Part shown: piece by piece, positions 2,521 through 53,070 of the stretch
Layout of the letters: each line of letters starts with the position of its first letter
Numbering within the stretch: the stretch's first letter is position 1
From: Thermoplasmatota archaeon
GTDB lineage: Archaea; Thermoplasmatota; Penumbrarchaeia; JASLWR01
Reading direction: 5' to 3'
NCBI GenBank assembly: GCA_030740765.1
Contig: JASLWR010000008.1
Span: 1-64,000, forward strand
DNA: 64,000 nucleotides
Program-made: the position numbers and the translations under genes
The notes under the pieces: model-generated
What the model saw: the letters and a program-made list of their open reading frames with translations, nothing else
Database searches by the model: none
What the model was told of the DNA's origin: nothing

Positions 2521-5500
2521 TCAGGTTCTCAATTTAGCCAATATATCTTCGAGCTTCTTCGTGGTATCGGCGACATTCTCCACTTTATCAGGGGATGTTA
2601 TTGCGGGTGCCGGTGAGCTTATGACCGGGGATGTTCTCGCTATAACGGGTGCAGTACCTGACGAGAGAGGGGCGGTTTTCGCTACAACCGGTGTTGTAGT
2701 GCTAACCGAGACTGGAGCAGTTCGAGCGATAACGGGCGTGGCGCCGGAAGCCGGAACGGGAGAGGTCTTCGCCACCATGGGTGTTGCACCAACCGGGACA
2801 GGGGAGGTCTTTGCTACCATGGGTGTAGCTCCGCTAGCCGGTGTTGGTGAGGTCTTCGCCACTCCGGCGATGGGAGCGGTACGCTTGATCGATGATAAAA
2901 GTCCCTGAATATCCACTCCCTCCTTAGTTGCTTCCTCCGGTGAAATGGAGGCAGGGGGCAATGCCATCTGTACTTCACCCGCAGGCACGCTTGTTGTCTT
3001 GGGTAACGTAACATCAACCGCAGTCGGTCCCTGGGGTAGGGCTTGGGTTGTGGACACGATTCTCGGAGCTCCTGGTTGCATACCAACCGCAGCGGGTTGG
3101 AATTGGTCCTGCATCATGGGCTGGGTCCCGGGTGGAATGAAATAATCCGCCTGTTGCTGTTGCGGGTAAAAGGGTTGCTGGGGGTATCCATTAAATCCAG
3201 GAGCCCCGTACCCTTCCATTCCACCATACATGGTTTGCATCTGGGCTTCGAATCTGGACCGGTTCAGCTGGTTCAGATATTCCATGTTCTTCCCTTCTTC
3301 CATTTCCCGATCATCGCTTGAATCTTCTATGTCCATTTCGTCACTTATAAATGAATCGTCTTCGGCATCGTAATCTGCGGTGGCATCGTAGACCAGGCTC
3401 TCAACGTTATATTTTTTCTTGAGAAAGATAACGGAGAACACCGTGATCATGAAGGCAAGAAAGATGATGAGAAAGATGAATACATAATCGAGTGAGGATA
3501 TTCCCATTTCATTTGTTTTATTCTCATCAACCTCAATTTCATGCTCTATCACGCTGAAATATCCCTCTCCCTTATCATTCTCTGGATATGCATCCTTTAT
3601 GCCGGATATCTCGGATGTGATCAGGAAATCACCTGGTTTGGAAAATGTATGATTGAATTTCACACGTACATAAGAGTTGCTTTCCATATATGTGATGTTG
3701 GTGCGATAGATAAGTTCTCCGCCTGATCTGATATTCACCCACAGTTCGCTGCCGAACTTCTCCGAATCAAAGAACTGGGCACCCTTGTTAAGAACGTCCA
3801 GGTAAAGACCGAGAGGCAGGTTCTTCTCCACCATATAGATATCCTTTGCAATGTCGTTCTCGAGATACAGATCGGTCACTGCAAATTCGAATTCGACCAC
3901 TCTTATATTTATAGTGGTCTTCTTAACCAATTTAGCTCCCACGGTGATCCAACCCTGTACCTCGAAGGTGTACCCCTTTAGGTCAACTCCCGTCGGTGGT
4001 TTAAAGGAAAGCGCCATCTCTTTGGATTCCCTGTACTGAAGAAAGAGATTTTTCTGGCCCAGCAATCCCCACTTTTCGCCGAAAATATCGAAGGACAGAG
4101 TAACGTCGCCGTTGCAGGTATTATGAACTTTTAGCTTTACAAGGGTTTCACCCTGTGGTATTGCATCATAGGTCCGGTTTGACTCTTCAAATGAAAAATC
4201 CAGGGTTTCTGCCACGGTCAATGAGAACGTCTGCTGGAAGGAAATATTTACATTTACCATGGAACCCAGTTTCAAAACGAATTCATATGATTTGGCTGCC
4301 TGATCCAGAGGGATCTTAACGTAGAAAATTGGTTCGGTGGTATAACCAAAATCAACTGTGAATTGCGGTTCGGGTATGTAAACCCAATCGGGATATTCGC
4401 ACTCCACCTCCCAGGTATAGGTATCTTCAATATTACCAATATTACGGAGCATAATGACAAAGGACACGTTATCGCCTATGAAGCCGACCTTGGAGGATAC
4501 GTTACATGTTATTTCGGCATTTCGTATCGGGATCACGTTCACTGTAAATTCCACAGTGTCCTGGATCTTCAAGGGTACGTCCGAAAGCACGTCAATGGTG
4601 AATTTATATTTTCCAACCGGAGTGCTCGGGGGCACCCTTATCTTGAATTCGATATCAGCCTCCAGGTCCTGTGGAAGCCCTCCCTCCCTGATGTTAGAGG
4701 AATCCAACCATGTTTCCCATTGACTGGGCTGGTTCGGGCTGTCAGATACGACGAAAGTTCCCGGATTGCCGACCATATCATCCAGATCGTTACCCGTGTT
4801 GATTATGGTAAAGGTGAATGTCGAATAACCCCCGGGCTGACCATCTCTTTCCGGGATCAAAGTCTCGTCCCTGACTACATCGACATCATAGATATGGGTT
4901 ACAATGGTTTGTACGAAACCCATTTCTTTCTGCCCACTATCCGAATCTATAGGTTGGGCTACAAGGGTTGTAATATGACTGAAACCCGCATCCGCCTCTG
5001 CCGGGAGATAGACTATCACCGGTATAACAACCGTACGACCCATCTGTATATGTAGTCGGGCCTGAGTATCATCTACCAGCAAAGCTACCCATTCACCGTG
5101 GGAGCTGTCTATCCACAGGTCATAAATATCATCCCCGTTTCCAAGGTTCTGGATCTGGAACTCGTAGAGAACATCCTCTCCCGGCAGCTTGTACTGCGCC
5201 TCAGGGGTCTTTATATCGATCCTGTGGAGGAGAAGAACATCAATGTTAAAGGTCAATGTAGAACGGTTGGATGAGAGTTTCGATCTCAAAGTGACATCCA
5301 GGGCGTATTTTCCCACCATGGCACTGTAAAGGTCACCTACCACGATACGAACTGTCATCTTCCTTATTTTCTTAGCATCATCTTCGGGGCTTGAACGTGG
5401 TGGTATCCGGGGAAACTTATCCGGATAGAGTATTATATTCCATCCTTTAATGGGAGTGCTGTCCACAACATAGTCGTCATAGAAGTTACCCTCGTTGGTA

Positions 5501-7313: not shown

Positions 7314-9131
7314 TTAATTCATTCCGAGAATTGAAAATTCATTATCTTTAGCGTAATAATGAGGAATGTCACGAATGGATTTTGTGTAAATATGATCATT
7401 TGCGATTAAAATTTCAAAATTCCTCATAATAATTTTTTCATCTAATTTCATTCCATTTTTAATAAGTCCCATCCTCTCAATTAGGTCTTCGAAGGTGACC
7501 CCGTTCTCGTTCATGGATACTATCCCCAAAACGGAATACTTCGTTAGCATGTTTTTGTCGCGGATCGTCTTCCCTTTTATAACTACCCCCGTACCAAGAA
7601 GAATAACCAAAATAAAAATACCGATTATAAGACTAAGGATTTGCATGGAAAAGAGTGCATCATCTTTTTCAACCAAGTCTCTCCCTGTAGACACCGGTGA
7701 CAGGGAAAAAGTACTCAGAACGTTGCCGCCCAAGTCCCTGTATGAAAGGATTACCGCATCACTCTCATCCTTCACAACCTTTGTCCAATCGATTTCAAAC
7801 TCCGTGCGATCCGAATCTCCAAGAGGTATGTCTTTCATGACCACCGTCATGGAATTCCCATCAGGCTCCATCTTTGTAACGGCGAAATCATATTCTTTAT
7901 CATGGAATCGAATGATGTAATTATCACTTTGATTCCGTGTCATTACCATATCGGAGGCGCTAATTTGATACGATTTTTCTTGAAAAAAGCGGGTGAACAA
8001 CATACTGTAGGATTTATCGAGATGAGGCCATTCGATTATGGATTTATGTTGTTCCAAATCAGCCTCGAAGCTCATATCTTCTAGGACGATCCGGGCCCGA
8101 TCTTCTCCGTGGACCTTCATGATTATAAGAGAATATTTTTCATTAGAAATATCATCGATGAAGCCCTCGTCATTCAAGCGAACGCTCATATCCAATTGTG
8201 ATGTACCCGATAGGATGAATCTTTCCCAGAATACATCATCCGGTAGCGAAGGCCATGAATTCTGATTATCATTCAAATTTCCCGAAGGCACAACTGCGGA
8301 TTTGACGATTTCCCCCTCGATCTGCAATTCATACGCTTCCCCAGAAAACAGGATCTCGAAATATTCATTGGTCGGAAAGGGATTCTCCACATTTATTTTC
8401 ACCGTAATGATCTTCTCGAGAGCGATACCCGTGATTAGTTCGCCGATAATGAGGAATGAATACTCTTTCTGCTCGATACCCCAGGGTGGGTTGAAGGAAA
8501 TTATCAATTCTTCTACCTCTTCGATAATGACAAAAAGATTTCTATGCTCAAGTATTCCCCAAGGTTCCCCGAAGATACGAAATGTGAGCGGCAGAGCGGC
8601 ATTTCCGACATTCGCAACCCTTAATGGTAGAAGGATTTCACCTCCCATCACAGCATTATAGGTGTCATTCAAGACCGATAACGAGAAATCCAGAGTCTCA
8701 GTCACGTTTACCTTGAAACTTTGCTCAAAGGAGGTATTCCCATATCCTTCCGAGAACAATGTGAATAGAAAATCATATGTGTCTACAGGGGCGTTCATCG
8801 GTACTCGAACGTTGAACAACAACTGATATGTATCACCGAAATCAACAGTGAACGTAGGATCTCCCAACCATATCCAGGATGCCTGGTCGCTCTCCACCCC
8901 CCAATTATATGTGGCTCGGATATTTCCCGTATTGTTTAACATTGCAGTGAAGGAAACGTTGTCCCCAATATTGGCGTCCTTGGATGTTTCTTTGATCTCC
9001 ATCTCTATATTGTAGAAAGTAAATACATTTAAGGTAAACGAAACCTTGTCCTGATGCGTCAGGGGAATATCGCTGTATATGTCCATAACAAACTCGTAGA
9101 CCCCCGCAGGGATCAAGGGGGGGATCCTCAT
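7314..9131 (-). CDS. C-terminal part of a surface receptor-like protein (ectodomain, TM, cytoplasmic winged-helix-like tail); split from 9128-10279 by a 1-nt frame break
   Basis: Collinear with residues ~380 onward of the 2521-5769 protein; TM ILSLIIGIFILVILLGTGVVI; tail KYSVLGIVSMNENGVTFEDLIERMGL...EILIANDHIYTKSIRDIPHYYAKD is wHTH-like. Confidence 0.7.
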   Translation of the reverse strand: MRIPPLIPAGVYEFVMDIYSDIPLTHQDKVSFTLNVFTFYNIEMEIKETSKDANIGDNVSFTAMLNNTGNIRATYNWGVESDQASWIWLGDPTFTVDFGDTYQLLFNVRVPMNAPVDTYDFLFTLFSEGYGNTSFEQSFKVNVTETLDFSLSVLNDTYNAVMGGEILLPLRVANVGNAALPLTFRIFGEPWGILEHRNLFVIIEEVEELIISFNPPWGIEQKEYSFLIIGELITGIALEKIITVKINVENPFPTNEYFEILFSGEAYELQIEGEIVKSAVVPSGNLNDNQNSWPSLPDDVFWERFILSGTSQLDMSVRLNDEGFIDDISNEKYSLIIMKVHGEDRARIVLEDMSFEADLEQHKSIIEWPHLDKSYSMLFTRFFQEKSYQISASDMVMTRNQSDNYIIRFHDKEYDFAVTKMEPDGNSMTVVMKDIPLGDSDRTEFEIDWTKVVKDESDAVILSYRDLGGNVLSTFSLSPVSTGRDLVEKDDALFSMQILSLIIGIFILVILLGTGVVIKGKTIRDKNMLTKYSVLGIVSMNENGVTFEDLIERMGLIKNGMKLDEKIIMRNFEILIANDHIYTKSIRDIPHYYAKDNEFSILGMN

Positions 9132-10279
9132 CTGAAGGAAATGTCCGCCGCGTGGCCCTTTGCTAATCCGGTATCATTCACAGAGGAACTATCAACATAA
9201 GTGTTCCAGTTCACAGGAGTAGCGGGGGATCGGGATAACAAGAAGGTCCCGGTTGAACCGATGACAGCATCCAGGTTGTTCCCCCTATTAACGATCTCAA
9301 AAGCGAATGTGATTTCATCACCAGGTATCCCGCCCTTGGTCCTTTCCAGCTCGTTTTGCTCCACCTCTATTCTCGTGATGTTACCGATTTTCGTCCCAAC
9401 GTAACCTCGCTCCACCTGAGGAGTGGGCTCTCTCTTCAGACTTGCTGCAAAGGTAGTCCGATGGACATAACCCGCATCCGCATTTCCCGGAATGAACACT
9501 ATTACCGGTGCGACCACGCCATTGCCAATATGGAGATTAATTGTTTCCATGGAGTCGTCAACAAGTTTGACTACCCAGAGGGGATCCGAAGACTCGACCC
9601 ATATATCGTATGTACTATTGACATTTCCAGTATTCCATATCTGGAATTCGTACATTACTACCTCACCGGGCAAACGGGATTTCTGTTGAGGGGATATTAT
9701 CTCAACCCTATGGAGTGGTAGGATTTGAACGGTAAAGGTTAAAGTGGAGGTGTTGAGGGACAGCGAAGAACGGAGCGTTACTTCAATGGAATAATTGCCT
9801 ACGTTGGCATTGGATATGTCTCCAACTACGATACGAACCGTTAAGCTTTTGATTTTCTTTGAATCATCCTCAGGGCTCGATAATGGCGGAATCCGAGGGA
9901 ACTTTTCAGGATAGAGGATTATGTTCCATCCCTGAATCGGAGTGCTGTCCACAACATAGTCGTCATACATATTACCCTCGTTGGTAACGGTACAGTTAAA
10001 CGTGACGAGGTCCATAGGATAAGCCTGCTTCGTCTGAGGATCGGGGCCAGGTTCGTTACATACAAGCACAGGTGTGAATTGCTGCGCTCTGGTGATCCCA
10101 TGGGAATCATTTCTGGAACTGGCATTATCGGGATCATCAACCGCTGCTTGTACTCCATCACGGTTCACAAATATAAGCGAGCCCGGTAGAAGGAAAATTA
10201 CGGTTAAAAAAAGGATCATTAGCGTTCTGGGAGCTTTTATTCCTGTGAACAATTTTTTGCCTCCATATATTATATTCAT
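9128..10279 (-). CDS. N-terminal part of the same surface receptor-like protein; paralog of the 2521-5769 N-terminus
   Basis: Shares (N)QTKQAYPMDLVTFNCTVTNEGNxYDDYVVDSTPIxGWNIILYPxKFPRIPPxSSPEDD with 2521-5769; ends at TGA overlapping the downstream ATG (ATGA). Confidence 0.75.
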   Translation of the reverse strand: MNIIYGGKKLFTGIKAPRTLMILFLTVIFLLPGSLIFVNRDGVQAAVDDPDNASSRNDSHGITRAQQFTPVLVCNEPGPDPQTKQAYPMDLVTFNCTVTNEGNMYDDYVVDSTPIQGWNIILYPEKFPRIPPLSSPEDDSKKIKSLTVRIVVGDISNANVGNYSIEVTLRSSLSLNTSTLTFTVQILPLHRVEIISPQQKSRLPGEVVMYEFQIWNTGNVNSTYDIWVESSDPLWVVKLVDDSMETINLHIGNGVVAPVIVFIPGNADAGYVHRTTFAASLKREPTPQVERGYVGTKIGNITRIEVEQNELERTKGGIPGDEITFAFEIVNRGNNLDAVIGSTGTFLLSRSPATPVNWNTYVDSSSVNDTGLAKGHAADISFR

Positions 10280-10326: not shown

Positions 10327-10590
10327 AGTAATGAGGATCTTATGACATTTCTTGACAAGACGGAGGCTACTGGCCCGTCTTGAAAGTTTGACATGCCAAC
10401 AGGTGTGTCTTCACTTGACAAGTCACCACTTGTCCAGTGTGGCACGCCCGCAGGCATACAGGCCCGCGATTCTGCTCACATTGTCAAGCTGCAAACCTCG
10501 ATGTGTCTGCGACCCATCTATCCCTTTCGAGGCCTTACTCGAAAGGCTTCGACATTTTTATCGAACTTTGCACCTATGACAATATATAGC
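10327..10590 (-). repeat. Hairpin-dense intergenic element (copy A), possible structured RNA
   Basis: Perfect inverted repeats: 10356-10382 (CAAGACGG/CCGTCTTG), 10412-10439 (CACT-T-GACAAGT/ACTTGTC-C-AGTG), 10523-10546 (CCTTTCGAG/CTCGAAAGG), 10548-10565 (TTCGA/TCGAA). The reverse complement of the 10530-10590 end matches 52640-52700. Confidence 0.6.
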
Positions 10591-33180: not shown

Positions 33181-33276
33181 GCAGGTGTGATCTAGCCTGG
33201 TTAGGATTTGGGCCTTCCACGGTATAGCAAATACCGGAGAAAGCCTACTGCTCGGGTTCAAATCCCGACACCTGCA
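33181..33276 (+). tRNA. tRNA-Gly(TCC) with a 22-nt intron (33220-33241)
   Basis: Acceptor GCAGGTG/CACCTGC, D-stem ATCT/GGAT, anticodon stem TGGGC/GCCTA with loop CTTCCA|A, T-arm TCGGG-TTCAAAT-CCCGA. The intron CGGTATAGCAAATACCGGAGAA has stem CGGTAT/ATACCG and sits at canonical position 37/38. Confidence 0.92.
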
Positions 33277-52583: not shown

Positions 52584-52639
52584 TTCAGCCCCATATCGAT
52601 CCGTTTTTGATATCACGTTCTTTGGTATTAATATCCACT

Positions 52640-53070
52640 TTTTGGTATATATTGTCAATGGTGAAAATCTCGATAAAAAGTCGAGGCCTTTCGAGTAACG
52701 ATTTGACGATGCCCGTTGGCACTCCGCAAACTCCTTAGGACTTTGCTGCATCCTAGGCAAGTATGCCTACGGGTTCACGCCTCGGCAAATCCAGGCGTGT
52801 CTTCAAGGTAACGTCCTTGAAGGCGCAGCAGAGCTGTAGGGTCTGCGTAGTGCAACGGGAGCCTGTAGGTTTGCAAAGGAAATCGAAGGCTCAGCAATGC
52901 CCAAAGGGTATTGCGTAGCCTGACCGCACACTTGCGGGCAGGGATAGGAACATCTCTGATGTTTCAAGACGAAGTGGGAGCCTGTAGATTTCCAGAGGAA
53001 ATCGAAGGTTCAAGGGTATCTCTGATGCCCTGGAATGAAATGGGAGCCCGAAGGTCCGATTCCGCTGAAT
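52640..53070 (+). repeat. Hairpin-dense intergenic element (copy B), possible structured RNA
   Basis: Hairpins at 52669-52685, 52776-52799, 52801-52822, 52824-52847, 52894-52914, 52924-52937, 52949-52963, 52987-53003, 53014-53030. Internal repeats GGGAGCC(T/C)G(T/A)AG at 52857, 52976 and 53042. Confidence 0.65.

Follow-up and report, generated by a model that had tools for sequence, protein, structure and literature searches.

Does a non-coding locus built almost entirely of inverted repeats encode a structured RNA, or is it a piece of mobile DNA? The question is raised by positions 52640-53070 of the window, the stretch of 64,000 nucleotides from a Thermoplasmatota archaeon that was analysed here, where a preliminary description had seen about nine consecutive stem-loops and had proposed both possibilities. 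The genome of the window, G000, consists of 158 contigs and is 93.7% complete. Our preferred reading, to which we assign a probability of roughly 0.65, is that the locus represents a rearranged copy of a hairpin-only, non-autonomous mobile element, which would move in a manner resembling that of IS200/IS605 elements.

The hairpin locus and its copies

The nine inverted-repeat pairs described previously are all present, between 52669 and 53030, and the direct repeat said to recur about 119 bp apart is found as a 37-nt sequence that is 89% identical at a spacing of 119. The plus strand folds to -190.3 kcal/mol, while 100 dinucleotide shuffles of the locus give -137.4 +/- 6.8 kcal/mol (z -7.8, 0 of 100 as low), so that the expected excess of folding energy over shuffled controls was obtained; the minus strand, relative to dinucleotide shuffles, is less extreme with a z of -6.2. 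The expected excess of inverted repeats was obtained in part, as there are 11 perfect 6-bp repeats where 3.2 are expected, but single shuffles contain up to 17, and for this reason the inverted-repeat count by itself is weak evidence at the locus. No plausible ORF covers the hairpins, in agreement with the preliminary description: the sole long overlapping frame is one of 635 aa on the minus strand with a TTG start at 52760, and inspection indicates that its true start is likely to be an ATG (MFTAYKMKG...) near 52585. The stem-loops themselves exist as described, but they are partly nested and do not simply follow each other in a row, and the limits of the unit within the hairpin stretch are corrected to 52651-53070.

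At gathering score, an Rfam scan of the window returned tRNA alone and no family at the hairpin locus. The tRNA gene (33181-33276, plus strand) is probably intron-bearing, because its 96 nt match a model of 71 positions; nowhere else in the window are inverted repeats as dense as around this gene, at 33.0-33.6 kb.

Comparison of the locus with its own genome by blastn gives 68 matches at about 40 places, confirming that further copies exist. When blastn is combined with a covariance model of H1, the left hairpin of the element, the repeat family occupies about 75 distinct places in G000, making the locus one copy of many and not a unique feature. The H1 model by itself gives 109 matches on both strands of G000, a number that overcounts places because a strong copy is often matched on both strands. 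Sixty-seven complete copies could be delimited, with lengths from 68 to 716 nt, and at least 16 of these are exactly 93 nt, the commonest size. The window contains a second copy (Table 1), whose neighbours are a minus-strand gene at 9128-10279 and a plus-strand RqcH/NFACT-like gene from 10662; these flanking genes are divergent, and the H2 part of the copy is fused to another hairpin array. A third copy lies on the same contig, past the end of the window at about 71,670. Besides G000 only the genomes G007 and G001 match, giving 3 of the 198 genomes in the phylum sample, and exact DNA-pattern scans of genome contig and viral contig collections gave no match. No paper describing this hairpin family was found in the literature searched, which is not proof of absence.

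The basic unit and its insertion sites

In its minimal form the element measures about 93 nt and extends from ATTGTC to (T)GAAT or (T)TCAT, with H1 starting directly at the left end of the element and a second hairpin, H2, near the right end. H1 has the form ATTGTCAATGGTGAAAAGCTCGACAAAAAGTCGAGGTTTTCAGCTTGACAAT and is followed by H2, which has the form GTTC-GCGGAATCG...CGATTCCGC-T-GAAT. In 24 minimal copies the stems of H1 and H2 together comprise 32 pairs with 93.5% of cells paired, and 45 double-change cells are counted where shuffles give 13.2 (none of 500 reaching the observed value), a covariation signal that is abolished by sliding the pairing partner. Mismatches on the plus strand include 30 of G-T and 10 of A-C (p = 0.002). 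The covariation of the stems and the excess of G-T over A-C lead us to conclude that the fold of one strand is under selection, with the plus strand being maintained. Such a selected one-strand fold would suit RNA and single-stranded DNA equally.

A second pairing links H2 with the right end. Across the 67 copies the foot of H2 covaries with the tail of the element, GTTC occurring with GAAT and GTGC or GTGA with TCAT (Fisher p = 4e-7), although the underlying table is approximate, the pattern-based count of H2 feet misassigning a few of the copies, which are also listed singly. In the relatives G007 and G001, inspection reveals the foot/tail pairs CTC with GAG and TCC with GGA.

Insertion of the element follows a simple rule. 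AT stands directly to its left in 63 of the 67 copies (background 0.098, p ~ 1e-58) and a purine occupies position -4 in 58, defining the target as RNAT. Direct repeats between the flanks extend over merely 0-2 nt in the 67 copies, leaving no target duplication, and terminal inverted repeats are absent, the mean being 5.7 matches in 20 and the maximum 9. At least the last 2 nt of the left flank and of the right tail agree in 60 of the 67 copies, and AT is found in both positions in most. Because AT is constant at either end, the data are also compatible with a duplication of 2 bp (AT), as would be produced by a classic MITE that depends on a DDE transposase; the missing terminal inverted repeats, in place of which hairpins lie near both ends, led us to reject such an element, and we consider it very improbable.

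Insertion into genes leaves exact junctions. In a DUF4147/MOFRL protein the MOFRL domain is interrupted by L032, an insert of 219 nt that is in frame and stop-free, and the rejoined flanks align to positions 3-106 of 106 across the junction. Further in-frame copies, each of 93 nt, are found in genes for a DUF4143 ATPase (L097) and a TPR protein (L084), and a 213-nt copy with stops (L025) interrupts another ORF. The orientation of the copies to neighbouring genes is mixed, with both directions represented, which rules out a conserved upstream or terminator element. The RNAT targets, the lack of terminal inverted repeats and target duplication, the mixed orientation and the exact, restorable gene junctions therefore identify the element as mobile and non-autonomous, and we regard it as very likely that the family is a mobile element. 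The idea of a mobile hairpin array was thus correct in essence: there are many dispersed copies, exact insertion junctions and modules in common.

Nesting and exchange of hairpin modules

Table 1. Coordinates of the window copy (L021) and its parts, and of the second family copy in the window.
Feature	Position	Strand	Evidence
Whole element copy, ATTGTC to GCTGAAT, 420 nt	52651..53070	+	67 aligned complete copies and exact junctions elsewhere
Target site on the left flank, ATAT (RNAT in the family)	52647..52650	+	flank statistics of 67 copies
H1 5' half, apical stem CTCGA/TCGAG	52651..52686	+	H1 model match 52649-52702; comparison with intact L022
Nested modules inside H1: CCTTTCGAG.., CACGCCT/AGGCGTG, CTTCAAGG/CCTTGAAG, GCAG../..CTGC	52687..52851	+	identity to L022, L024
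95-nt module: GCAATGCCC/GGGTATTGC, CCGCA/TGCGG, AACATC/GATGTT	52888..52982	+	95/95 identical in L021, L023, L025, L026
51-nt double-hairpin unit within 95-nt module, ends approximate	52918..52968	+	in L025; missing from L030, flanks continuous
H2 3' side: GTAG-tagged inner hairpin GATTTCC/GGAAATC; GGGTATC/GATGCCC	52979..53070	+	alignment to other H2 regions
Right-end tail TGAAT, partner of foot GTTC in intact copies	53066..53070	+	foot/tail association
Second family copy in the window	10344..10585	-	H1 model 62.5 bits; blastn with copy library

The copy in the window differs from the basic frame in having neither the 3' half of H1 nor the 5' half of H2. Counted along the element, positions 1-201 match copy L022 at 89.6% identity, positions 1-151 match L024 at 89.4% and positions 191-332 match L023 at 96.5%, and positions 329-420 align with the H2 regions of L022, L033, L034 and others. 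This copy is a mosaic, and the simplest reading is that it was formed by deletion or recombination at a unit common to both regions, GGGTCTGCGTAGTG; it is through this apparent event between repeated units that H1 kept its left part and H2 its right part. The loss of the two halves also explains why the locus was first perceived as a row of hairpins and not as a closed structure.

Longer copies keep the two-hairpin frame and gain hairpin units at three slots, nested over several levels. The extra lengths are 47-57 nt, about 102 nt and further values within the H1 slot, 50-51 and 99-100 nt in the slot between H1 and H2, and 59-68, 113-126 nt and further values in the loop slot of H2. The gains are quantised as 0/47-53/99-102 and 0/59-68/113-126 nt, corresponding to a unit of about 50 nt or of 60-66 nt. 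The same slots can be seen both empty and filled: set beside L056, L038 has an extra 49 nt after GTCG, the end of H1 is followed by 50 or 51 nt in L053 and L038, pairwise comparison identifies 50 nt in L119 and 53 nt in L054, and a slot inside a module holds 51 nt in L025 and is empty in L030. Inserted units mostly fold into two hairpins. Four copies (L021, L023, L025 and L026) contain an identical 95-nt module, while the 5' halves of their H1 hairpins are merely 50-69% identical, and the modules have therefore been copied recently between frames.

The modules also occur in arrays that lack the ATTGTC frame (L028, L038 at 3168-3315, L040, L050, L173, L181 and L182). Some of these arrays carry another frame, CACTTGAAAAGCC...GGCTTGAAAG / GCCAACAGGTGTGTC, and at least one further family appears to draw on the same pool of hairpins. 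A long palindromic repeat, AGCCACTGAAGCACAGAAT...ATTCTGTG (L037, L039, L044 and L117), likewise has inner modules in common with the family; it has been struck by a 93-nt copy in L044 and probably in L117, with L037 and L039 resembling the empty site. Downstream of a radical-SAM-like gene, at positions 1-330 of L186 (G000:C18), a nested-hairpin unit is located in a stretch that is rich in GC and apparently structured. Here a module may have entered an RNA gene; a permissive Rfam scan of L186 gave chance matches alone and no fitting family.

The inner hairpins often follow the pattern CC-[C/T]GTAG-stem-GA-GG, and GTAG occurs 74 times in the family compared with 10 for CTAC. The commonest of the larger asymmetric internal loops is GTA/GA, with 19 in the plus-strand fold and 3 in that of the minus strand. 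These recurrent, strand-biased loops, which we take to resemble the RNA G-bulge (sarcin-ricin) motif, would together with the strong covariation and the one-strand excess of G-T suit structured RNAs with a regulatory or protein-binding function whose family has been amplified, with the hairpins kept for the function of a transcript. GTAG tags are, however, also typical of the single-stranded-DNA hairpins of REP sequences (PMC3733652, PMC8266576). The copies moreover stand in both orientations to genes, some lie inside ORFs, their lengths span 68-716 nt, the locus matches no Rfam family, and the copies are confined to three genomes of the phylum sample. We consider functional RNAs of this kind improbable; the structured ncRNA envisaged in the preliminary description was not borne out, for want of an Rfam match, a fixed gene orientation and a distribution beyond three genomes, and a unique ncRNA at the locus is ruled out by the number of copies and by the way they insert. 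It should be cautioned that complex clusters of hairpins with strong covariation can be mobile debris instead of functional RNAs.

Growth could alternatively have come about through replication slippage, template switching and gene conversion alone, the hairpins being multiplied with no transposase acting on the modules. The window copy, a mosaic whose parts meet in a repeated unit, is in keeping with such processes, as are L108, L115 and L118, which have lost the inner stem of H1 or nearly all of H1. The basic unit is nevertheless present at many unrelated RNAT sites, some of them in genes, which requires a cutting and joining activity, and the module gains are near-constant in size and restricted to fixed slots, making this explanation highly doubtful. 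We also regard as unlikely a self-nesting hairpin transposon, in which one host enzyme reads the foot/tail rule and puts hairpin pairs into hairpins. Were it true, cutting would be set by pairing inside the element, and growth would proceed recursively in fixed units to large folds with GTAG/GA loops, an open-ended "hairpin grammar."

The family bears on how palindromes that have no transposase of their own, such as REPs, PATEs and mitochondrial GC clusters, spread and grow. G000 offers about 75 copies, ranging from the bare 93-nt double hairpin to nests of 716 nt, and because the same slots occur both empty and filled, the growth steps and the right-end pairing rule can be read directly and are testable in vitro.

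Candidate enzymes and related systems

Under the IS200/IS605-like reading that we prefer, the element would move as single-stranded DNA. The enzyme would be a Y1 (HUH) TnpA supplied in trans, which would fold one of the strands and recognise its hairpins. It would cut at the right-end tail, as directed by the complementary foot on the 5' side of H2, and would join the element to the 3' side of an RNAT target. On this view related hairpin elements would have landed on existing hairpins and become the nested units, with recombination among them. In IS200/IS605 elements the cleavage sites are set by complementarity to guides located 5' of each palindrome (PMC8266576), and the foot/tail pairing at the right end fits this scheme. 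Counted against it is that the search for a transposase whose ends match gave none; at the left end, where H1 starts directly, no guide pairing with the RNAT target could be assigned. We give the Y1 single-strand mechanism an even chance.

Two intact IS200-type TnpA genes are present in G000 (L127 and L129), one of which adjoins what we read as a TFB-like gene, a mark of an archaeal genome. Both were considered as partners with matching ends and rejected, as their ends are unlike H1 and H2, and models of H1 and H2 (R1, R2) gave no match around the four Y1_Tnp loci of two intact genes and two fragments. The REP-associated model NF047646 gives these TnpAs 25.8 and 22.1 bits, below its cut-off of 80, and they score as IS200. 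Y1_Tnp was not found in the two relatives holding copies, whose genomes are incomplete, and TnpB was not found in any of the three genomes, all incomplete. An RVT_1 reverse transcriptase gave no match in G000, at 93.7% completeness, and its absence from this incomplete genome rules against retro-mobility. The IS200-type right-end hairpin CCCCGTAGCTTGCTGCGAAGTGAGCAAAGCGAACGATGGG is found in L127 (1320-1480, minus strand) and at 13 other places in G000, making 14 copies, several of them at contig ends; its loop layout is GTA...GA, as in the inner modules.

The closest comparison is with the PATEs of Haloquadratum walsbyi, palindrome-associated elements too short to encode a transposase, in which SMR-A repeats of about 110 bp insert into near-terminal palindromes (PMC3119063). 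Like PATEs, the hairpin family is archaeal and non-coding, has palindromes near both ends with no terminal inverted repeats or target duplication, undergoes internal deletions mediated by repeats, and accepts short repeats within its near-terminal palindromes (PMC3119063). Features of PATEs and IS200/IS605 derivatives that were found here are the end palindromes, the lack of terminal inverted repeats and duplication, the target on the left and, by sequence, a complementary guide on the right. Unlike those of PATEs, however, the palindromes of the family were not found at the ends of any IS200/IS605-type element in G000, and the basic unit is merely two hairpins of 93 nt. In contrast to SMR-A, the inserted units are pairs of hairpins, measure about 50 or 60-66 nt, lack prominent inverted terminal repeats, are nested over several levels and are common to different frames. 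We prefer to describe the family as PATE-like in its working and do not class it as a PATE, because the link to the ends of an IS605-type element was tested and not found.

Yeast and fungal mitochondrial GC clusters and double-hairpin elements are short mobile units that merge and shuffle into many size types with one end in common (PMC4478555, PMC2800124). Their likeness to the family is one of form, in the short palindromic or double-hairpin units, but they are organellar and flanked by direct repeats of AG or ACT (PMC4478555, PMC2800124), whereas the family resides in a prokaryotic chromosome, has an RNAT target and combines a fixed two-hairpin frame with foot/tail pairing.

The GTAG-tagged REP and BIME sequences associated with RAYTs are likewise high-copy palindromes, and the inner hairpins of the family often bear a 5' GTAG as they do (PMC3733652, PMC8266576). 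By analogy with REP/BIME, a HUH transposase would be a plausible partner. The frame nevertheless differs from REP/BIME in that the H2 foot is GTTC or GTGC, with GTAG mainly in the inner modules, and in that H1 and H2 are different hairpins in direct order, not a REP and an inverse REP. Membership of REP/BIME with RAYT was rejected, as there is no GTAG foot on the frame and no gene that scores as a REP-associated tyrosine transposase.

Rickettsia palindromic elements are palindromic repeats that lie in frame inside protein genes. We know of no recursive modules in them. The in-frame copies in L032, L084 and L097 are a point of likeness with these elements (named in PMC5799277), which belong to an unrelated organism. 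What is new in the family described here is recursion in fixed units together with the foot/tail rule.
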